The notes under the pieces are model-generated. The model did no database searches and was not told where the DNA came from. It was given only the letters and a program-made list of their open reading frames with translations. Below, in pieces: positions 43,012-54,369 of a stretch of 64,000 nt of DNA. Made by a program: the position numbers and the translations under genes. The number at the start of each line of letters is the position of its first letter. Position 1 is the stretch's first letter. The stretch is from an uncultured Porticoccus sp. GTDB lineage: Bacteria; Pseudomonadota; Gammaproteobacteria; Pseudomonadales; Porticoccaceae. The DNA lies in the NCBI GenBank assembly GCA_947259505.1, contig CAMYLT010000002.1, positions 186,001-250,000 of the forward strand, given 5' to 3'.

Positions 43012-43041
43012 TGTAAACAAACTGTGCGTATTATCGCACAG
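43012..43041 (-). terminator. Terminator after the hybrid-kinase gene
   Basis: CTGTGCG pairs with CGCACAG around ATAATA; on the minus strand TTTGTTTAC follows. It lies 60 nt past the kinase stop and marks the end of the six-gene operon 43101-54141. Confidence 0.65.
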
Positions 43042-43100: not shown

Positions 43101-46100
43101 TTAGCTGAGAACTGGCTGCCGAAAGTATTTTTCTGAGAAATCTGCCGAAGACAGCGGCTTACTGAAATAGTAGCCCTGACAGATGTTACAACCGCTTTTT
43201 TGCAAGATTTGATATTGCTCCTCGTTCTCAACCCCTTCGGCCACGGTTTTGAGTCCCATACTTGTGGCGAGAGCGATGATACCCGTTACAATCGCCTGGT
43301 CGTTTTCGTCTTTTTCCAAGTCCTTGATAAACATTCTATCAATTTTCAGCACATCCACCGGGAGTCGCTTCAGGTAATTGAGTGATGAAAAGCCACTGCC
43401 AAAATCGTCGATGGCCAACGTCAAGCCCATTTCTCGCAAGGCGTTCAGCTCCACCTCCAACTCTTCAGGATTTTCCATCAAGGTGCTTTCTGTAATTTCC
43501 AGCTCCAGGGATTTTGGCAAAATTTTGTGCTGTTCCACCAACTGCTGCATTTTGTCTTTAAAGTCACCCAGTTGAATGTCCTTACTGGACAAATTTACTG
43601 CCATTTGGAGGTTATGCCCCTCCGCCTCCCAGCTTTTCAACTGAAGGCAAGCATGGCTCAATACCCACTCACTGATCTGGTTGATTAACCCTGATTCTTC
43701 AGCCATCGGGATAAACATATCAGGTGAAATCACACCATGCCGAGGATGCTGCCAACGGATGAGCGCTTCGGCACCCATCATCTCACCACTCACCAGGTCG
43801 ATTTTTGGCTGGTAGTACAAGACCAGCTCGTCACTCTCAATGGCGTGCCTCAACTCCCGCTCGATTTCCATGCGACGGGCAATCTCGTCCTCCATGCCCT
43901 CCACATAAAAACAGTAACTATTGCGCTTTTCCTTGGCACGGAACATGGCGGAATCAGCGTGCTTCATCAGCGCACTAGTATCTTCGCCATCCTGAGGAAA
44001 GACTGAAATACCGATACTGGTCGTCACGAACATTTTTTGTTGCAGGAATACAAAAGGCTGACCGAGAGCATCGCAAATTTTTCCGGCGATCTTGGACACC
44101 GTCTCAAGCTCAGTAACACCTTCGAGAATCACCGTAAACTCATCTCCTCCCAACCGGGCGATGAAATCCTGGCTTCTGACACAACGTCGAATCCGCTCTG
44201 ATACCGCCTTCAAGAGCAAATCCCCGGCGTCGTGTCCGAGGGTATCATTGATCAATTTGAAGCGGTCCAGGTCCAAAAACAGAATAGCCACCTGCTTTTC
44301 TTCCAGTTGGGCGCGATTCAACATCAGACGCAACTGTTGCATTAGTTGCGTACGGTTGGGCAACCCGGTGAGGGGATCATGGTAGGCTAGTTGCTTAACG
44401 TGTTTTTCAACTTTATTGGCCTGGATTAATCGCGAGACGCGCTGCTTGAGGACCGAAAAGTGGATAGGTTTGGGAATGTAATCAGTGGCACCAGATGCAA
44501 ATGCCTTGACGATGGACTCCTCATCTTCAAGGGCGGTAACCATAAGCACGGGGGTATCGGCGCCGTTGGGTAGCTGCCGTATCCTTTCACATGCGACGAA
44601 TCCATCTACTTCGGGCATCATGGCATCCATCAGCACCAGATCAGGCATATTACGCTGGCACAATGCGATAGCCTGCAAGCCATCGCTCGCCTCTTCAATA
44701 ATGTATTCTTCCGTTTTAAAGACATTCTTGAGCGCCAATCGCATAGAGCGATCATCGTCTACGACCAGAATGTGGTAGTTATTGCCTTTTACCCGCTGGG
44801 ATTCATCGTTCTCGACAATATAATCCTGCAATGCTTTACCGAGACCGACGTAAGCCTCTTTCAACTGTTTATGTAGATTGTCCGCGCCCTCAAGGTCATC
44901 TGTAGCTCCCTTTTCTTCCAGTATCTTGGCGATATCGGTCACTTTACGTGCGCCAAAATTCGAGGCGCTACCCTTGACGGTATGAGCCAGTTCGCGGACT
45001 TTTTTTACATCACCATCCAAAATGGCATGCTGAAGAGACTGCAGATAGACCGGTGTGTCTTCCAGAAAAGCCTCTATCATAGAGACAAGTACTTCACCCA
45101 CACTATTTTTGAGTTCCTGAAGTACAAGTGGGTCAAAACTGCCCCCGAAGATATCTGCATCTTCCTTGACTACATCTGTCATTGTCTCTGTGTCATCAGT
45201 TATCGGCGTCAACTCGCCTTGATCAGCCGGAATCCACTTCAATAGCATTTTTTGCAGTGTTTCAATTCGTAAGGGCTTGGAAAGGAAATCGTCCATTCCA
45301 GCCGCCACACATCTTTCAGCTTCTGTTTGAGTATTGTTAGCCGTCATCGCGATGATCGGTATTCCACTATCGCCTACCCGGCTGTCCTCATACATCCTTA
45401 TCTGCTTGGTCGCATCGTAGCCGTTCATCACCGGCATATAGCAATCCATGAGTACCGCGTCAAAATGTTGCCGAACAACCATCTCAACGGCTACCTTCCC
45501 GTTTTCTGCCAGCTGACATTGGCAACCCATGCGCTCCAGCATCCCAATTGCTACCTGCTGGTTGGCTCGATTGTCATCAACGACTAGCACTTGGCGAGGA
45601 CGAAGATAGAGCTTCTCAATCGTGCGGCCTTTGTCACGCTTAACCTCCAGCACCCCACCCAAAAGGTGCTGTTCCAGACAGGCCTTTAGTTCTCCCGTCT
45701 TCAGCGGTTTATTTAGGTAGGACACTGCTTCAATTTTTTCCGGGCCATCTTTATCCCAAGGATTATTGAGTATTGCGATGAAGCAATTGCGCACTGAACT
45801 CTCATCTCGAACCAGTCTGAGAAAGTCGGGGGCACGCAAGCCTGGCATGTCTTCATCAATCAGCAAAATATCCAGATTGTGGCCTTTGTTTGACAACGCC
45901 CTTATATACTCCAGAGCACTGATGCCCGAATCAATAACATCACAGGCGACCCCCAGATTTTTAAGCTGCTGCGAACCATAGGCGCCCACAATGGCACTGT
46001 TGTCGATCAATAGCGCTTGCTTGCCTGCAAATGCCGTATTCGATGCGGGCAGGAATTCCTGCTTCGCGCCAGCTACAACCCCACTGGGCATGGTAAAAAT

Positions 46101-47573
46101 AAAGGAACAGCCTGTTCCTGTATGACTATCTACCCAAATAGTGCCGCCCATTAGCTCAACAATCTGTCGGCTGATGGCCAATCCCAGGCCTGTACCCTCA
46201 TATTTTTTGGTGCTAGATGAATCGACCTGAGTGAAAGCATCAAAAATACGTCGCTGGTTCTCCTCGGAAATCCCTATCCCCGTATCTCTCACCTCAACCT
46301 GAATCAGTTGGCCCTCAATACTCCCTTCTGCTTCACAACAGGTAACATAAATTGATACTTCGCCTATTTCGGTAAACTTAATGGCATTGCCTACCAAATT
46401 AATGATGACCTGCCTAATACGAGAGGTATCTCCATGGATAACTCTGGGCACACGTTGGTCAATCAAATAGCCGATATCAATTTTTTTCTTGAGCGCTTGG
46501 TTGGCCAACAGGCCAACAACCTCATCCAGCAGTTCGTGGAGGGAGCAATCTTCCCTTTTAATAGTAAGGTTGTTCGAATCAATTTCGGAAAAAGTCAGGA
46601 TTTCGTCAATCAGCTCTAACAACCCTTCACCAGAAGTCTTGGCCGTCTCAACGTATTCAAGCTGTTTTGAACTCAACCCCATGGTCATCAACAGATCGAG
46701 CATACCAAGTACAGCGTTCATGGGCGTGCGGAGTTCATGGGTCACATTGGCTGCAAATTCACCCTTGATACGAGCCGATTCAAGTGCCGCAGACATGGCC
46801 CTCATCAGTTCCTGCTGCCTGCTTTCCAGCGCTTCCATCATCGAATTAAAGGCATGTTGCATCTCAGTGATATCTGCAGGACCACCCAAGTCAGCACGAA
46901 TAATCGAATCACCTTCCTCGGCTCGCTTCATGGTCGTAGCCAGCTTTTCAAGTGGGTTGGTCAGTCGACGTGAGATCCCCAACAGCATGAGTAACAGGAT
47001 AACGGCAACCATCAGGGAAATGAGCAGATTACTCCGCAGGATACTCTGCTCCATAAGGATAGCGGCATCCTTGCCAACCTCCAGATAGATATAACCTAGC
47101 AGTTCTTCATTCTTTGTTTGAGTGGCATCAAACTCATTCCAGATATTATCCTGTGACTCACCTGCAGTAACAGGTGCACTGAATAACCAGCTCTGCTTAT
47201 CCTCCTTAAGCAGTTCGACTTGTTGGGGCCAATTATTTACCTGTATGACCGCGTCGTTACTACTGAATAAAACAGTACCTGTTTCAGTGAGAACAGCCAC
47301 CGATTTAACACCAGGAAAATTCAATGCATTGTCGACCAACTCCTTGGCACTTTCCTTGCTCTGATAGAGCAGTGCCAGCTCTCCCTGTTTAGCAAGAGAA
47401 CCAGCTACCTGTATGCCCTGCTCGATTTGGCGATCGCGAAAAATCTGGCTTGAAATATTGCTGACAGCAATGGACGTTATGAGCGCCATGAACAATATGC
47501 CCACAACAAAAATCAGGCTTAACTGATGCCTGAATTTCATGCTGCTAGCATATTTTTTCGAGGATGGAAGCAT
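43101..47573 (-). CDS. Membrane hybrid kinase with three REC, Hpt, GGDEF and EAL domains
   Basis: Domains in order: membrane segment (about 15-38), periplasmic part (40-176), second membrane segment (177-200), HAMP, HisKA with His279, HATPase (Asn396, DTGIG at 430), receiver 1 (516-637; Asp573 and Lys622 kept, one acidic-pocket residue lost), receiver 2 (660-775; Asp710), Hpt (His864), receiver 3 (934-1050; Asp983), GGDEF (1142-1146) with an inhibitory RxxD site at 1133-1136, and EAL (1269-1271) with DDFGSG at 1389. It thus holds a full phosphorelay plus the motifs to make and break c-di-GMP. The periplasmic part has no recognised sensor fold. The binding-protein gene ends 9 nt ahead of it, which suggests a sensor pair of the TorT-TorS or LuxP-LuxQ kind. 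Confidence 0.93.
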   Translation of the reverse strand: MLPSSKKYASSMKFRHQLSLIFVVGILFMALITSIAVSNISSQIFRDRQIEQGIQVAGSLAKQGELALLYQSKESAKELVDNALNFPGVKSVAVLTETGTVLFSSNDAVIQVNNWPQQVELLKEDKQSWLFSAPVTAGESQDNIWNEFDATQTKNEELLGYIYLEVGKDAAILMEQSILRSNLLISLMVAVILLLMLLGISRRLTNPLEKLATTMKRAEEGDSIIRADLGGPADITEMQHAFNSMMEALESRQQELMRAMSAALESARIKGEFAANVTHELRTPMNAVLGMLDLLMTMGLSSKQLEYVETAKTSGEGLLELIDEILTFSEIDSNNLTIKREDCSLHELLDEVVGLLANQALKKKIDIGYLIDQRVPRVIHGDTSRIRQVIINLVGNAIKFTEIGEVSIYVTCCEAEGSIEGQLIQVEVRDTGIGISEENQRRIFDAFTQVDSSSTKKYEGTGLGLAISRQIVELMGGTIWVDSHTGTGCSFIFTMPSGVVAGAKQEFLPASNTAFAGKQALLIDNSAIVGAYGSQQLKNLGVACDVIDSGISALEYIRALSNKGHNLDILLIDEDMPGLRAPDFLRLVRDESSVRNCFIAILNNPWDKDGPEKIEAVSYLNKPLKTGELKACLEQHLLGGVLEVKRDKGRTIEKLYLRPRQVLVVDDNRANQQVAIGMLERMGCQCQLAENGKVAVEMVVRQHFDAVLMDCYMPVMNGYDATKQIRMYEDSRVGDSGIPIIAMTANNTQTEAERCVAAGMDDFLSKPLRIETLQKMLLKWIPADQGELTPITDDTETMTDVVKEDADIFGGSFDPLVLQELKNSVGEVLVSMIEAFLEDTPVYLQSLQHAILDGDVKKVRELAHTVKGSASNFGARKVTDIAKILEEKGATDDLEGADNLHKQLKEAYVGLGKALQDYIVENDESQRVKGNNYHILVVDDDRSMRLALKNVFKTEEYIIEEASDGLQAIALCQRNMPDLVLMDAMMPEVDGFVACERIRQLPNGADTPVLMVTALEDEESIVKAFASGATDYIPKPIHFSVLKQRVSRLIQANKVEKHVKQLAYHDPLTGLPNRTQLMQQLRLMLNRAQLEEKQVAILFLDLDRFKLINDTLGHDAGDLLLKAVSERIRRCVRSQDFIARLGGDEFTVILEGVTELETVSKIAGKICDALGQPFVFLQQKMFVTTSIGISVFPQDGEDTSALMKHADSAMFRAKEKRNSYCFYVEGMEDEIARRMEIERELRHAIESDELVLYYQPKIDLVSGEMMGAEALIRWQHPRHGVISPDMFIPMAEESGLINQISEWVLSHACLQLKSWEAEGHNLQMAVNLSSKDIQLGDFKDKMQQLVEQHKILPKSLELEITESTLMENPEELEVELNALREMGLTLAIDDFGSGFSSLNYLKRLPVDVLKIDRMFIKDLEKDENDQAIVTGIIALATSMGLKTVAEGVENEEQYQILQKSGCNICQGYYFSKPLSSADFSEKYFRQPVLS

Positions 47574-47582
47574 TATCGGGCC

Positions 47583-48527
47583 TTATCTGGCAGGCAGGAT
47601 AAGATCAACTTTTCCCCTCACGTCATTTGAGAGGGAAATGCCCAAGTGATTTCCAGTACGTTCGTTAACGGCAACAAGAACGTCTCGGAGTGGCTTCATT
47701 TTTGGATCAGCTTCTTTTCTTAAAACCTGATTAGCAATCTCACCCAAGCTTGCCCCCATTTTTTTATTATCAGGGTACACCGCGAACAGCGCACCATGTT
47801 TGACATGCAGTGGGTTTGAAGAGAATACCACCAGATTTTTACTCCAAGCAGCATCAAGTAAAAGTGAAAAAATGGCGCTATTTACATAGGACCCATCCTG
47901 CAGTATCCACACCGCATCTGTGGAATTCGCCTTATCAATCATCTTTGCATAGAGGGAAGCGGCATCTCTAAGATCGGCAGCACGATCAATCATCAGTTGC
48001 ACACCACGACTAGCCAAGTACTCGCTCGCACCTTTTAACTGAACATCCTCACCCTGGGTTTTTTGGACAACGTGCACACGCTTCACGGTTGGCGCCAACA
48101 TCAGCAGTCGATCTAGCACCACTTCCGGATCCGGTATCATCAGGATACCAGGATAGGTATATTGACTATCATTGACAGCACCAAGAACCAGTGGAATTTG
48201 ACTGCCTGTTGCTCTCAAAACATCGAGGCTTCGCTTACCAAGAACCAGCACAACATCGGGGTTTTTAGCGTCGAGTACAGGCTTCGCACTCGTCTTTTCA
48301 TCCAGTGCCAACAAACTGGTATTGCCACCGAACTTTTCTTTGGCGCCCAGAGAAATATCTTCAAACACCTTTGAGAATGGACCCTTAACCTCCGGGTAGA
48401 GCACCATAAGCTCAGCACTCACACTCTCGCTACTGAGGCCCGAAAACATAATGATCACAAATGGCAGCAGCAGCCGCGAGGACATGTGTGCCCAAGTGAT
48501 TTTGTTACCTGAAAAAAATCTATTCAT
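47583..48527 (-). CDS. Periplasmic ABC-type substrate-binding protein
   Basis: A 314-residue protein with a signal sequence (LLLPFVIIMFSGLSSESVSA) and the two-lobed ABC_sub_bind pattern: VVLVLGKRSLDVLRATGSQIPLVLGAVND, later VWILQDGSYVNSAIFSLLLDAAW and VVFSSNPLHVKHGALFAVYPD. No permease or ATPase gene lies nearby, so it more likely presents a ligand to the hybrid kinase than feeds a transporter. ATG at 48527 has AGGA at good spacing. It lies 37 nt past the TonB-receptor gene. Confidence 0.85.
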   Translation of the reverse strand: MNRFFSGNKITWAHMSSRLLLPFVIIMFSGLSSESVSAELMVLYPEVKGPFSKVFEDISLGAKEKFGGNTSLLALDEKTSAKPVLDAKNPDVVLVLGKRSLDVLRATGSQIPLVLGAVNDSQYTYPGILMIPDPEVVLDRLLMLAPTVKRVHVVQKTQGEDVQLKGASEYLASRGVQLMIDRAADLRDAASLYAKMIDKANSTDAVWILQDGSYVNSAIFSLLLDAAWSKNLVVFSSNPLHVKHGALFAVYPDNKKMGASLGEIANQVLRKEADPKMKPLRDVLVAVNERTGNHLGISLSNDVRGKVDLILPAR

Positions 48528-48564
48528 CCTTGTATCCTGCTGAACAGCTTAATGACAGCAATCC

Positions 48565-50706
48565 TTAATATTGGTAACGAATTTCGGCCATGACACTCTG
48601 GCCAGACAATGGCAGATCATCATAAATGAGCGGCCCAAGGTCTGAATTTTGGCTAGGCTCTCTTGCATCTTTATCAAAGAGATTCTTGACAATCAGGGCA
48701 ACATCCACATTTTCCCATATTGACTTGCGCCGTAAGGTCAAATCCACGATGGCATAGTTATCAATGTCAGACCTGGGGTCACCAGTCACCCGGTTGCGGT
48801 CCATCACCCAGTTGGCTTGAACATTCATATGCCAATTCGGGATAAACTGCCAATCAGCCTGGAGATACACTTGCTTTTCAGGCGCATTTCCAGCGTCCGT
48901 ATTTGTGTTTTTATCTTCGGACTTTTGCCATGCCAAATTACCGATTAGTTCTAAGCGTTCTGTAGCCTTCCAGCGTGCTTCAAACTCCAAACCATGCCCT
49001 GTCTGCTCGCCCGCATTCTGCGCTTGGCTACCTCCTGCTGCGGGAACAAACTGGATAATATCTTCCCACTCATAATGATAAACATTCAGATTGAACGAGA
49101 GGTTATATCCAGCCCTGTAATCAAATGCCAATTCATAACTTTTTAGTTCTTCCGGATCCAAGTCTGGATTGCCTTGAAAAACCGGGTTATTTATTGCCCG
49201 CGTTTGGGAAAAAGAGGGCGCTCTAAATGCCTCACCATAGAGTAACTTAGTCGTCAAATTACGGGTGGTTGACCAGACAAGAGCCAAACGCGGATTAACG
49301 GTATCGCCAAAATCTGAATAGTGGTCATAACGCAGACCAGCCGTCAGTTCCCAATCGTTGGCAAAATGCCAGACATCCTGAAGAAATACATAATTATTTT
49401 CACGCTCATCTTCGGTCATAAAGACAAAAGGAGTATCAGTAACTTCTACCACTGGGTCTACTGGCAGAATAAGCCCAAGTGTATAGGGGTTAATGCCGTA
49501 ATTTTTGGATTCCTTCACTTTGTATACATCGCCATAGTAATAACCGGCGCCAAAGCCGACTTCGTGCTTGTCGAACCCCTCATAAAAACTAGAAACATTG
49601 AATCTCGAGTGACGCTCATAAACTTCGGGGCTACCAATTACTCCATCAGGGAAACCACCGGGGAACATTGGAACGATTGAATTGGGGAGAAAAAAAGGTC
49701 CTGTCGACCCCTCAGGGTAAAGAACCAAATTACCCTGCACTTCTTGAGTTGTCTGAAGATAGCTAGCTTGAACCTTCAAGGATAGATTTTCTGTTACTTC
49801 TTTATTTTCATAAGTGAAGTCGGTATTTATTCTCTGGCTTGAAAACCTATTGTCATCAGATAATGCCTGCGCTGCTCCGACACCATCGCCAGCGTTATTC
49901 CGCGATTGAATACCCGCCCTCAAGACAAAGTTTTTGTAGCCAAGTTCTATGCGCCCATCGTAATTTTCACGCTGCATATTGACGGAACCCGGGGCCAGAG
50001 ACGCATTAGTGCCTGTGTAGAGATCCAGAAGAGACTGTGCATCAGATGAGATTTTCTCATCGTAGCCATCCGATTTCTGAGCTTCCAAAATTCCGTAAAA
50101 CCTTATCTCACCAATTGATCCACTTTTGCTAGCCCAATACTCTTTCGTGTTATAGGTGCCGTATCGCACACCAGTTTCAAAATGATCCGTCCCATCTGCC
50201 TCTTTGGTAACTATATTAATGACGCCGGCAAATGCATCAGCTCCATACAAGGCAGATCCAGGGCCGCGAATCACTTCAATTCGTGAAATTGCGTTAACTG
50301 GCATTCCACCCCAAACAACATTCCTGTCTCCATTCAATAGGTTTGTGATGGGTATACCGTTAACCAGCATTAAAACCTGTGGATTAAAGGCCGCATAAAT
50401 TCCACGGAATGTATAAATTGGGTTATAACCGGTGCTATCTCGTGCTACATGTAACCCAGGAATTGTTTCTAAAATCTCATCTATATCCCGCGCGCCCATT
50501 CTCTCAATATCAGCTTTGGTTACAACCGAGGCTACCGCAGGAGCTTTTGCTATGGGCTGAGTAATACCGGTAGCGATACTAATAAATTCTTCGCCGCCAT
50601 ATAACGTCATAAGGTCTATGTCTGTACCTACATCCAAGTCTGACAAGTCGCCCGCAAAGCAATTTGTCACAACAAATAAAGCCAATGTTCCACAATATTT
50701 ATTCAT
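48565..50706 (-). CDS. TonB-dependent outer-membrane receptor
   Basis: The 713-residue protein has a signal peptide, a plug domain (SVVTKADIERMGARDIDEILETIPG; IEVIRGPGSALYGADAFAGVINIVTK) and a beta-barrel ending in an aromatic YQY. The front, DLSDLDVGTDIDLMTLYGGEEF, replaces a classical TonB box and resembles a receptor group whose ligands are mostly unknown. The substrate cannot be read. It starts 2 nt after the citrate-synthase-like gene, with its ribosome binding site inside that gene, so it is part of the operon. Confidence 0.9.
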   Translation of the reverse strand: MNKYCGTLALFVVTNCFAGDLSDLDVGTDIDLMTLYGGEEFISIATGITQPIAKAPAVASVVTKADIERMGARDIDEILETIPGLHVARDSTGYNPIYTFRGIYAAFNPQVLMLVNGIPITNLLNGDRNVVWGGMPVNAISRIEVIRGPGSALYGADAFAGVINIVTKEADGTDHFETGVRYGTYNTKEYWASKSGSIGEIRFYGILEAQKSDGYDEKISSDAQSLLDLYTGTNASLAPGSVNMQRENYDGRIELGYKNFVLRAGIQSRNNAGDGVGAAQALSDDNRFSSQRINTDFTYENKEVTENLSLKVQASYLQTTQEVQGNLVLYPEGSTGPFFLPNSIVPMFPGGFPDGVIGSPEVYERHSRFNVSSFYEGFDKHEVGFGAGYYYGDVYKVKESKNYGINPYTLGLILPVDPVVEVTDTPFVFMTEDERENNYVFLQDVWHFANDWELTAGLRYDHYSDFGDTVNPRLALVWSTTRNLTTKLLYGEAFRAPSFSQTRAINNPVFQGNPDLDPEELKSYELAFDYRAGYNLSFNLNVYHYEWEDIIQFVPAAGGSQAQNAGEQTGHGLEFEARWKATERLELIGNLAWQKSEDKNTNTDAGNAPEKQVYLQADWQFIPNWHMNVQANWVMDRNRVTGDPRSDIDNYAIVDLTLRRKSIWENVDVALIVKNLFDKDAREPSQNSDLGPLIYDDLPLSGQSVMAEIRYQY

Positions 50707-50708
50707 AG

Positions 50709-51515
50709 TTAATCACCCCAAACTCGGCTTTTATCATTACCTTCGAAATTAATACGCGAAACCCTTAGAGGAAAGAATGTCCCCTCCGGCTTTTGTGCAG
50801 CATCAAGAAAACAGGGAAAAACTCCCGCTGTAAAAGTCAATGTCGCCAGATGGTAATGCTGTTCTGGCGTAATGCCTTCATCTGCTAACATCCCAGCTAC
50901 AACACCTGATGCATTCACCCGGTATTTAAATCTTGAGTTGCCTAAATACTCATCAACCCTGAATGCGAGATCGGTAAACCTCCCCTGCCCTGCCCCCATA
51001 GAATGAGCAAACTCCAACAAAGGCTCCACTCTCTCGTCTCGATCAACCAGCGGGCGGCCATAGCCATATATTCCCCGATACTTCTTCAACTCAGATGAAA
51101 CCAGCTCCTCAAAGTCTTGACCTTTATTTAACTCTCGATCGATTCTATAGAGAAAGTCCATTCCGCCTTTTATTGGCTTCAAGCCATATATTGTGGCCTC
51201 AGAAACAGCCAAAGCCCCTGCAGAACCCAAAACCCCAGTAGAGCGGGCTGTTGCCGAAAGTGCAGCAATACGGTTGTTCCACAATCGTGGATCTGGAAAA
51301 CTCGTGCAAATTACCCACATCCCCTCGATAAGCCTAGCGATACGAGGTGAATGACGACCAGTGATACCGAACAGCAGGTATTCCAACCATCTATATTCTT
51401 TTAATTCCGTAAGTACATTTTTTCCTCGAAGAAACACTTTCTCACCGGGAATCCAGCCACCAATTTCAGTTTCCCAGTTATCTTCATATTCTTCTAATTT
51501 ATTGGGGATATTCAT
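50709..51515 (-). CDS. Citrate-synthase-like protein lacking catalytic residues
   Basis: This 268-residue protein aligns by eye with the next gene upstream and with the citrate synthase/citryl-CoA lyase fold. Where the family has DH it has LW (residues 78-79, PRLWNNRIAAL); where GHP/GHR is expected it reads YGYGRPLVDRDERVEPLL; where the Asp is expected it has Asn (YRVNASGVVAGML). All three catalytic positions thus look replaced. It may be a non-catalytic partner of the other paralogue or have a new activity. Its start overlaps the previous stop by 4 nt. Confidence 0.65.
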   Translation of the reverse strand: MNIPNKLEEYEDNWETEIGGWIPGEKVFLRGKNVLTELKEYRWLEYLLFGITGRHSPRIARLIEGMWVICTSFPDPRLWNNRIAALSATARSTGVLGSAGALAVSEATIYGLKPIKGGMDFLYRIDRELNKGQDFEELVSSELKKYRGIYGYGRPLVDRDERVEPLLEFAHSMGAGQGRFTDLAFRVDEYLGNSRFKYRVNASGVVAGMLADEGITPEQHYHLATLTFTAGVFPCFLDAAQKPEGTFFPLRVSRINFEGNDKSRVWGD

Positions 51516-52336
51516 TTCCCCTCCTTCTGCTCTTCCGCACCCGACTTATCAATTAGTTTTAACCCATCCCCAAAAAACGGATATTTCCGCCAGCCCAATT
51601 TTTCCTGCTCCAGGGAATGAACGGCAGCACCAGGCAACCGCAACAAGAGATAAAGAATTTCAGATTGCTCTGGAGACAGTTCCAAAGCCACCATGACGGC
51701 AGCGGCTGCGCCGGACATCGCCAAAGGTAATTCTGCAGCTTCTTCCAATTCCGAGCGGTTCTGCTGCAACCAGATCAAGTTTTCAGCACCGCTTACTTCA
51801 GTAAGATGAGCGAGAGTCTGCAGAACTGGTGCAGGACAACTGACTCCGTTGGGGTCAAAACCAGGTGGGTGTTCCATTGGCATCCAGACATCAGCACGTT
51901 CTTCCACCGGAGGTTCTTTAATCATTGCCTTCCAGGCATCCAGATCCATCCCACACTGATTCCAATACTGAACAGCAGTAAAGACTTCTCTCCCTCCCCC
52001 CAGATTACCAGCACCTACGGATATGGCGGCAATCAGAGCAGATGCATGTGTCGAACCGCCTACCCCTGCACACATCGCTGCGCGAACACTGTGATCCCTG
52101 GGGCCGGGATTTGCCAAAGCAACAGCCAAACCTTCCAGCAATCTTGTCTGGCTGGGAGAAGGGCGTTCCAATTTGAACAAAAGATATAGATATTCGATAT
52201 AGCTAGCTTTGCCTAGCAAGTCGCCATAGACGTCATACCCGGCACAATAGCAAGCGGAAGCAGCGAAGGGGTTGTCCTCCTCCGCTGTTTCGTTCCATAT
52301 CCTTGTGGTAATTTTTTCGATTTTTTTTTCGGTCAT
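51512..52336 (-). CDS. Citryl-CoA lyase/citrate-synthase-like protein
   Basis: A 274-residue protein with the core stretch PRDHSVRAAMCAGVGGSTHASALIAAISVGAGNLGGGREV, matching citryl-CoA lyase and the C-terminal part of ATP-citrate lyase (DH with the catalytic His, here His82). A second His is kept in EHPPGFDPNG, and the terminal LPGAAVHSLEQ resembles the family's GxxAHxxEQ. The third catalytic Asp appears lost (PLAMSGAAAAV). Length suits citryl-CoA lyases. What it cleaves or joins is unknown. It overlaps the ThDP enzyme and its paralogue by 4 nt on each side. Confidence 0.72.
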   Translation of the reverse strand: MTEKKIEKITTRIWNETAEEDNPFAASACYCAGYDVYGDLLGKASYIEYLYLLFKLERPSPSQTRLLEGLAVALANPGPRDHSVRAAMCAGVGGSTHASALIAAISVGAGNLGGGREVFTAVQYWNQCGMDLDAWKAMIKEPPVEERADVWMPMEHPPGFDPNGVSCPAPVLQTLAHLTEVSGAENLIWLQQNRSELEEAAELPLAMSGAAAAVMVALELSPEQSEILYLLLRLPGAAVHSLEQEKLGWRKYPFFGDGLKLIDKSGAEEQKEGK

Positions 52337-54141
52337 ACCATCTGCTTTAAGGCCTTCGCCCGCATTCCCATGGGCGGGACCTCGTCTGGATCAATTCTGA
52401 CGTCGAGCAGCGTAGGTCCTTCCCTGTGACAAATCGCATCGACATCCAGTGCCAGAAGGTCTTCTGGCGACTCGATTATATGACTCTCCGCACCCATGGA
52501 CCGTGCAAAGGTCGCAAAATCAATGACAGGCAGTTCAAAACCAATAGGCTCAGCGCCGGTCAATTGCTGACCGTGACGCACCATGCCGTAACAACTGTCA
52601 TTGAGGATGACAAACACCACAGGCAGCTTTTCCTGGATTGCCACGGTAATTTCCTGCCCGCTCATCAGCATGCTGCCATCACCCGTGATGCAAACCACCG
52701 GGCACCCCTTCTCAGCCAAGGCAGTCCCTACTGCACTACCAATGGCCCAGCCCATGGAAGCAAACTCCAATGACGCGCGGAACAGACCACCTCTGCCATT
52801 ACGTTTCCCGGCAATACGCCGATCGTAGGGATGAAGATAATGGGTGGCCCAGGTGAAACTACCGCCGGAGTCCGCCAAGTAACGCGTATGGGGAGGAAAA
52901 ATTCTGGGTAATTCTCTCATTAACCTCTGGGGCTTGATGGGTGTTGCGTCAGAGCAAAAACCATCGACATCCTGCATCTGAAAATGCAAGGTCTTCTCCG
53001 CGCCCGACGCTTCCTCCATCTGCTGGAGCCGATCACCCACTGCGTGGATTTTACTGCGCTGATCCGCTTCGAACCGGTCAACTAATCGATCAAAAATGCT
53101 GGAGAGCCGCCCCCGAACATGCAGTTTCGCCATGGGTGTGCGGGTAAAGTTCTCTTCGACAGACTCAACATGAATCATGCGAGTTGTTAACAGGGACTCA
53201 GTATCCCAGCCATCACTCGCCCATTCACCCAGCGTAGCGCCAATCGCCACGACCAGATCCACATCGGTATCACAAAGAACATCCCGCGCACTCTGATGGC
53301 CAGCAAAGCCAATCACACCTCGAAAGAGCGGATGATAAGGACTCACCAGACCCTTCCCATGAGGCGTTACCAAGATACGGGCATCAAGATCCACCGCCAG
53401 GGTCAGGATGCTGCCAATTGCCTCACTGGCTTCATCACCGATCAGAAATACCGGTCTTTTGGCGTTCACCAATTCTTCATAGAACTGGTCAACAGCCACA
53501 TCATCCACAAGAGAAGGTTTGTGCAGCAAATTCAGGAGGTCATAATTGGGTTTCGGCGACAGCGCGCGATCACGCATGATATCCAGCGGCACACTAAGGT
53601 GCACGGGACCACCGGGAGATTGAAAGGCGGTCATGATGGCAGAAACCAGTTTTGCCTCAAATTGTCCGGCATGAGATACCAACGTGTTATAGCGGGTACA
53701 GTACTCGAACAGACCGACAGTATTGGTACCAGTGCACGAAGACTCCTGAAACGCACCCCGTCCAAACGTTGAAAGGGCTGTCTGAGCAGTAATCACCAAC
53801 ATGGGGATATTATTTTCGTAAGCGGAAGCCACCCCGGTAATCAGGTTGGTGGCCCCTGGGCCGGTTGTTGCGCAGCAAACTCCCAGCTTGCCAGTATTGC
53901 GCGCATACCCGTCAGCCATAAACGCTGCCCCGGTTTCATGCCTGGCGATGACGGCTCGTGGGCCGCCCCTGCGCTCGCTGCGAGCCAGAGCACTGTAGAA
54001 TGGCTCAATGGCCCCACCGGGCACACCGAACACATATTCAACACCGAGCTGCTCCAAGTAGGAAATCAACAAATCCCCAAATTCAGCTTCCACCTGCAAC
54101 GGTAAACTCTCTTTCTGCTTGCTGGCCCCGAGAGCGCCCAT
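52333..54141 (-). CDS. Thiamine-diphosphate enzyme, acetolactate-synthase type
   Basis: A 602-residue ThDP enzyme with the three-domain layout of acetolactate synthase and relatives: YVFGVPGGAIEPFYSAL, catalytic Glu69 in RHETGAAFMADGYARN, TTGPGATNLITGVASAYENN, and the ThDP/Mg motif GDGSMLMSGQEITVAI...LNDSCYG. It is not followed by a regulatory subunit (ilvH), and its neighbours are not branched-chain genes, so a separate carboligase or decarboxylase role is likely. ATG at 54141 has AGGGA upstream. It is the first gene of a six-gene operon. Confidence 0.85.
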   Translation of the reverse strand: MGALGASKQKESLPLQVEAEFGDLLISYLEQLGVEYVFGVPGGAIEPFYSALARSERRGGPRAVIARHETGAAFMADGYARNTGKLGVCCATTGPGATNLITGVASAYENNIPMLVITAQTALSTFGRGAFQESSCTGTNTVGLFEYCTRYNTLVSHAGQFEAKLVSAIMTAFQSPGGPVHLSVPLDIMRDRALSPKPNYDLLNLLHKPSLVDDVAVDQFYEELVNAKRPVFLIGDEASEAIGSILTLAVDLDARILVTPHGKGLVSPYHPLFRGVIGFAGHQSARDVLCDTDVDLVVAIGATLGEWASDGWDTESLLTTRMIHVESVEENFTRTPMAKLHVRGRLSSIFDRLVDRFEADQRSKIHAVGDRLQQMEEASGAEKTLHFQMQDVDGFCSDATPIKPQRLMRELPRIFPPHTRYLADSGGSFTWATHYLHPYDRRIAGKRNGRGGLFRASLEFASMGWAIGSAVGTALAEKGCPVVCITGDGSMLMSGQEITVAIQEKLPVVFVILNDSCYGMVRHGQQLTGAEPIGFELPVIDFATFARSMGAESHIIESPEDLLALDVDAICHREGPTLLDVRIDPDEVPPMGMRAKALKQMV

Positions 54142-54369
54142 AATCAATTTCCCTTATAAAATCAATAGAATATGGATCATTCTTAAATTCTTTATATCAC
54201 TTTCCGCATTATTGCCTTATTTTTGCACAAAATTCAACCATAAGCAGGCTGAAACAAGAAACTGTCACCAGGGTGTGAATTGGTTGGTGAGCCATTGCGA
54301 CAATACTCGATTCCACTGGCGCTATCCCTTACAATCGACGCCTTTCTTCGCTCGACAAACTGTAATCTG

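Follow-up and report, generated by a model that had tools for sequence, protein, structure and literature searches.

A cluster of six genes in the genome of an uncultured Porticoccus sp. probably constitutes one previously undescribed signalling system that sets the motile-or-sessile state. It lies in a 64,000-nucleotide stretch (GenBank assembly GCA_947259505.1, contig CAMYLT010000002.1, forward-strand positions 186,001 to 250,000), the whole of which is called the window here. The list of open reading frames (ORFs) places all six genes on the minus strand between window positions 43101 and 54141 (Table 1). In order of reading they encode a thiamine diphosphate (ThDP) enzyme, two related proteins termed A and B, a TonB-dependent outer-membrane receptor, a periplasmic binding protein and a hybrid membrane kinase. 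Its genes make up a defined set, and the cassette is genuinely conserved as a unit. We lean slightly towards reading the six genes as one self-contained make-and-sense system, whose chemistry, ligand and direction of signalling we infer. The ORF coordinates agree with a preliminary description of this DNA in the single strand and in the overlaps and gaps of the genes, the junctions from the ThDP enzyme to the kinase measuring -4, -4, +2, +37 and +9 nucleotides (nt).

To follow the conservation of the cassette, protein A served as query against named bacterial genomes and gave 62 loci (L numbers below; G numbers are genomes). Gene maps were drawn from mechanical ORFs, with family searches for selected members only. 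The loci belong to Porticoccaceae, SAR92-type bacteria, Cycloclasticus, metagenome-assembled genomes labelled Methylococcaceae and Thiohalobacter, Hahella, Rhodocyclales and Collimonas, and the cassette spans three classes, the Gamma-, Beta- and Alphaproteobacteria. The ThDP enzyme and B adjoin A in almost all 62 loci, and 35 of them have all six genes on a single strand in the same order; of the remainder, most have been rearranged or run into a contig end. All six are present in a different order in the alphaproteobacterial loci L103–L105, the same six are rearranged in the gammaproteobacterial loci L077 and L111, and L109 and L121 show further orders.

Co-distribution was strong across genomes. 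Among 98 related genomes, every one of the 42 A-carriers had the ThDP enzyme (p 1e-25) and 38 had the binding protein (p 4e-20). Collapsed to genera, these counts became 17/17 (p 7e-14) and 14/17 (p 5e-10), and among 274 gammaproteobacteria the binding protein was found in 28 of 30 A-carriers (p 5e-26), all of these p-values overstating independence since the genomes are related by descent. Four genomes (G173, G133, G252 and G292) hold the binding protein and kinase at a locus separate from the enzymes, and the two halves still co-occur. Where a strong binding-protein match was found without A, the ThDP enzyme was present at another locus in four of six checked genomes (G160, G299, G301 and G274). 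Co-distribution across rearranged and split loci therefore favours the functional link between the enzymes and the receptor and kinase genes that the preliminary description had proposed: their distribution is shared, and the set stays together in several orders. Hybrid kinases are common and the flank matches include unrelated ones, making the kinase alone a poor marker; these conclusions rest on the ThDP enzyme, A, B and the binding protein.

The same data bear on whether the six genes are independent neighbouring transcription units, together by chance or through gene-order conservation. Genes flanking the cassette in Porticoccaceae are likewise conserved, as this would predict. Against it, the set occurs together in different orders, classes and flanks, is present or lost as a unit within the genus, and continues to co-occur where it is split between loci. 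Co-distribution largely refutes this explanation, which we regard as very improbable.

Two partial arrangements were also seen. G009 (L141) has a ThDP fragment only, beside the kinase gene and with the four intervening genes gone; this is likely a remnant, an apparent natural deletion. L107 and L108 carry ThDP-A-B with no receptor or binding protein nearby, next to a protein of about 1730 residues with Ser/Thr kinase, AAA, GAF and histidine kinase parts (Pfam-scanned in L108).

We assign the ThDP enzyme from its sequence to the carboligase type of the acetolactate-synthase superfamily, which also holds ScyA-like and BbmA-CsmA enzymes. It carries PF02776, PF00205 and PF02775, its best PDB matches are BbmA and CsmA, and the catalytic Glu together with the GDG and Asn of the ThDP motif is invariant in 53/53 homologues. 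By TIGR00118 it is itself no acetolactate synthase (286 bits against a cut-off of 538.35), and it falls under every curated NCBIfam equivalog cut-off shown. In contrast to acetolactate synthase it has no adjacent small-subunit gene, and family searches of the same genome place the true IlvB-type enzyme at another locus.

Proteins A and B have no Pfam match, and their matches to the citryl-CoA lyase models of NCBIfam are far under cut-off. Their AlphaFold models (pLDDT 84 and 87.5, respectively) both returned citryl-CoA lyase 6hxp as the top PDB match, with E-values of 3e-8 for A and 5e-10 for B and a TM of about 0.76–0.79 for B. The two have a common fold (hhalign E 1e-11) and resemble the citryl-CoA lyase/citrate synthase superfamily in fold and in overall length (a 270-residue lyase). 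Homologues of both were compared, in one alignment, with the citrate synthase of this genome and a citryl-CoA lyase above the family cut-off (L143), leaving out L144 and L145 for their wrong reading frames. Equivalents of the catalytic His264, His305 and Asp362 are missing from A and from B. Both histidine sites are non-His in A, with mostly Ser, Thr or Pro at the Asp; L105 alone among A homologues carries His at the second site. In B the first site is non-His, the second is an invariant Arg and the Asp is mostly Ala, Ser or Gly, and a DER motif is conserved. L143, by comparison, still has the second His and the Asp, and since the first-His column is imperfectly aligned, the loss is firmest for these two positions.

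Unlike citryl-CoA lyases and citrate synthases, then, the cassette pairs two paralogues that are both triad-less, and since the triad is missing A and B are, on this alignment, not ordinary citrate synthases or lyases. The preliminary description had suggested that the pair, with the ThDP enzyme, could make or break a carbon-carbon bond; for the pair, the classical synthase or lyase reaction is unsupported. Gene distances of A and B correlate at r = 0.88, against 0.56–0.60 for either with the ThDP enzyme, weak evidence in that such correlations include vertical descent. This co-variation and the shared fold are consistent with a heteromer, which A and B probably form. Both are very strongly conserved. 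A plasmid collection held no homologue of A, and PHROG gave no match to A or B. One Rhodocyclales genome has duplicated genes, two A and three B, after a single pair of ThDP enzyme and short-chain dehydrogenase/reductase (SDR) genes (L076:8182-12647).

A variant of the make-and-sense reading, somewhat unlikely in our estimate, has A and B as non-catalytic sensors or scaffolds that would regulate the ThDP enzyme by acyl-CoA or citrate-like metabolites and so tie central metabolism to signal output. The triad is missing in all sampled homologues bar one residue in one protein, and A and B co-vary more closely with each other than with the ThDP enzyme, both as a scaffold role would have it. The very strong conservation of the pair speaks against this variant, as does its replacement elsewhere by a ketosynthase-III protein, which suggests a chemical step. 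Two lineages, those of L133 and L165, have neither A nor B, and the ketosynthase III occupies the space from the ThDP enzyme to the receptor (L133:8551-9501 and L165:4691-5683); the L133 copy retains Cys, His and Asn as judged by eye.

Further lineages differ in their accessory enzymes. An SDR stands between the ThDP enzyme and A in Collimonas and Rhodocyclales, or nearby; an O-methyltransferase is added in L045 and L112, and a carbamoyltransferase with an SDR in L057. An Asn-synthase-type amidotransferase was found in L111 (by Pfam) and L109 (by its sequence start), and in L164 a methyltransferase occupies the slot between the ThDP enzyme and the receptor. What these swaps leave unchanged is the ThDP enzyme together with the receptor, the binding protein and the kinase. 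These variants argue for biosynthesis, not catabolism. The preliminary description had left make-and-sense and find-and-use side by side; the former is now favoured and the latter less so, given the tailoring enzymes of the variants and the ketosynthase III that can replace A and B.

Under the catabolic alternative, the receptor and binding protein would detect an external keto-acid or thioester-derived compound, the ThDP enzyme, A and B would degrade or assimilate it, and c-di-GMP (cyclic dimeric guanosine monophosphate) would mark the feeding site. Nutrient detection typically pairs a TonB receptor with a binding protein, some ThDP enzymes are lyases, and Cycloclasticus cassettes lie near genes resembling 2-oxoglutarate dehydrogenase and fumarase: in the Cycloclasticus-type loci L054, L055, L056, L058 and L059 the cassette is downstream of 2-oxoglutarate dehydrogenase-like genes and upstream of a fumarase-like gene. 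We nevertheless think this alternative quite improbable. No inner-membrane importer for the compound was found, methyl, carbamoyl and amide tailoring and the ketosynthase swap are ill-suited to catabolism, and A and B are without the residues for classical lyase chemistry.

The remaining three genes form the sensing half of the cassette. The receptor has both Plug and beta-barrel (PF07715, 7e-25; PF00593, 1.4e-48) and matches no curated NCBIfam receptor type above cut-off. The binding protein matches PF04392 at 45.9 bits (cut-off 25.9); L071, L113 and probably L117 have a YfiR/HmsC-like periplasmic protein in its slot. As the preliminary description had noted, it is without transporter partners, neither the window nor the mapped related loci showing an ABC permease or ATPase next to it. 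The kinase reads sCache_4-HAMP-HisKA-HATPase-REC-REC-Hpt-REC-GGDEF-EAL by Pfam. Its periplasmic part, earlier described as unassigned, is in fact the sCache_4 domain of Table 1. GGDEF and EAL motifs are present in the kinases of 30 of the 35 ordered cassettes; of the remaining kinases one is clipped by a contig end, and the rest terminate in a receiver or Hpt domain.

The triad of TonB receptor, PF04392 protein and sCache_4 hybrid kinase was also found contiguous and enzyme-free, at L182 in the same genome and at L169. It comprises the same three sensing parts, with sequences distant from those of the cassette. The sensing half is therefore a reusable module, joined here to a synthase. The second triad of this genome, without enzyme genes, is on contig 7 (L182:3539-9401). 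Some cassettes or ThDP genes stand beside chemosensory (MCP, CheB, CheD) or SpoIIE-phosphatase/STAS genes (L042, L049, L057, L061, L078, L122, L165 and L180), neighbours that fit a motility output.

The receptor, core to nearly all cassettes, keeps a metallophore with self-sensing in play. Here the enzymes would make a small metal-binding hydroxy-keto or hydroxy-acid compound, the receptor would re-import the metal complex, and the binding protein and kinase would report its arrival, with c-di-GMP secondary. The receptor's top curated matches are haem, B12 and siderophore models, all under cut-off, and the tailoring enzymes suit a secondary metabolite. Against this, the gene maps show no recurring ABC permease or ATPase, inner-membrane siderophore transporter or metal-release enzyme, and the upstream alignment, though not searched specifically for one, showed no evident site for an iron regulator. 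We consider a metallophore unlikely, though less so than the catabolic alternative.

For the make-and-sense reading we propose the following route. The ThDP enzyme would couple two small 2-oxo-acids or aldehydes, giving a core of the acyloin or keto-acid type, as its family suggests. A and B, as a probable heteromer, would then act on a CoA thioester or on the core itself to complete the product; the ketosynthase III may serve as their equivalent elsewhere. One lineage has a methyltransferase in this slot, and others add reductive, O-methyl, carbamoyl or amide tailoring. The product would exit the cell and re-enter across the outer membrane through the TonB receptor. In the periplasm the PF04392 protein would bind it and contact the sCache_4 domain of the kinase instead of an ABC transporter. 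The phosphorelay could then tune the kinase's own GGDEF-EAL part, and through c-di-GMP the choice between motile and sessile states.

Several observations weigh against this proposal besides the shared descent of the genomes compared. The output of the kinase varies, GGDEF and EAL being missing from some cassettes. The sensing triad occurs without enzymes even in this genome, so that a self-made ligand is not always needed. G308 and G327 have the binding protein and no ThDP enzyme at threshold, and G197 and G232 have the ThDP enzyme and A and no binding protein. No exporter was found, and a simple acyloin is unlike the usual ligands of TonB receptors, which are scarce, large or bound to a metal.

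Parts of this arrangement are familiar. In the LuxP-LuxQ system for AI-2, which LuxS makes, the self-made ligand is detected by a periplasmic binding protein together with a hybrid membrane kinase. The cassette likewise pairs a binding protein with a hybrid membrane kinase; it differs in having no LuxS among its genes, in encoding synthase, receptor and kinase in one operon, in its GGDEF-EAL output and in its TonB receptor. The sensor type of BarA is sCache_4, and the cassette kinase shares with BarA-type kinases the sCache_4, HAMP, HisKA, HATPase, REC and Hpt domains. It scores 485.8 bits against an equivalog cut-off of 890, has an extra REC-GGDEF-EAL tail and is encoded beside a binding protein and a receptor.

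The closest known logic is that of ScrABC in Vibrio parahaemolyticus, the operon for the S-signal of the swarming/capsule switch, in which the genes for the enzyme that makes the signal, for a periplasmic protein that binds it and for a membrane-bound GGDEF-EAL receptor stand together (PMC11315295). In the cassette, similarly, the PF04392 gene precedes that of the kinase by 9 nt, and the receptor kinase ends in GGDEF-EAL (PF00990, PF00563), though behind a phosphorelay. ScrA is of the PLP aminotransferase type, whereas the six genes include no aminotransferase and have the ThDP enzyme, A and B instead; they add a TonB receptor and a phosphorelay hybrid kinase, and draw the binding protein from PF04392. 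With another synthase, and with an outer-membrane receptor and a phosphorelay besides, the cassette is not a ScrABC member. That binding proteins can activate both kinases and c-di-GMP enzymes is itself established (PMC9602780). The preliminary description knew of no described system with this gene set. Our search of a literature library that lacks most subscription papers, and so is no proof of novelty, likewise found none; that statement now needs qualifying in that ScrABC shares the logic with different parts.

Table 1. Features of the six-gene cassette and its flanks (window positions)
Feature	Position	Strand	Remarks
ThDP enzyme gene	52333..54141	-	ATG start 54141; TTG 6 nt upstream at 54147
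Protein A gene	51512..52336	-	citryl-CoA-lyase-fold protein without catalytic triad
Protein B gene	50709..51515	-	paralogue of A, triad lost
TonB-dependent outer-membrane receptor gene	48565..50706	-	Plug + beta-barrel
Periplasmic binding protein gene	47583..48527	-	PF04392; apparent signal peptide
Hybrid membrane kinase gene	43101..47573	-	Pfam domains
sCache_4 periplasmic sensor domain, kinase residues 50-174	47052..47426	-	PF09984 40.2 bits, cut-off 22.1
GGDEF + EAL output domains, kinase residues 1063-1473	43155..44387	-	PF00990 164, PF00563 275.7 bits
Promoter-like pair TTGAAT-18-AATAAT	54208..54237	-	upstream of ThDP gene; consensus scan
Terminator-like hairpin + T tail	43022..43041	-	60 nt past kinase stop; consensus scan

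Consensus scans gave putative signals at both ends of the cassette. The -35/-10-like pair at 54237/54208 is kept in the upstream alignment of Porticoccus-type relatives and is a candidate promoter only, conservation being no proof of function. Beyond this pair, the 5' leader of the ThDP gene (54142-54200) is conserved in relatives and is possibly an operator or leader element. A hairpin-like element is present where the preliminary description had placed a terminator, in a scan that runs near chance level (15 matches against 11.3 expected). Rfam and tRNA scans of the window returned nothing.

Taken in its widest form, the proposal is of a new family of bacterial signals. A ThDP carboligase would make them with a citryl-lyase heteromer of reshaped catalytic site, or with a ketosynthase III in its stead; tailoring that differs between lineages would turn them into private "dialects"; and a TonB receptor of their own would bring them back to the periplasm, for binding protein and kinase to convert into c-di-GMP output. 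We consider this broader claim plausible, if somewhat short of an even chance. If true, it would to our knowledge be the first self-made signalling system with its own outer-membrane receptor in its core. Because co-distribution over three proteobacterial classes marks a real conserved gene set, the cassette is a testable unit in culturable hosts (such as Collimonas or Porticoccus), where it may yield a small molecule, a use of the citrate-synthase fold and a path from outer-membrane receptor to c-di-GMP that are all new. Since the tailoring genes differ between lineages, the predicted products would be chemically distinct and could be compared.

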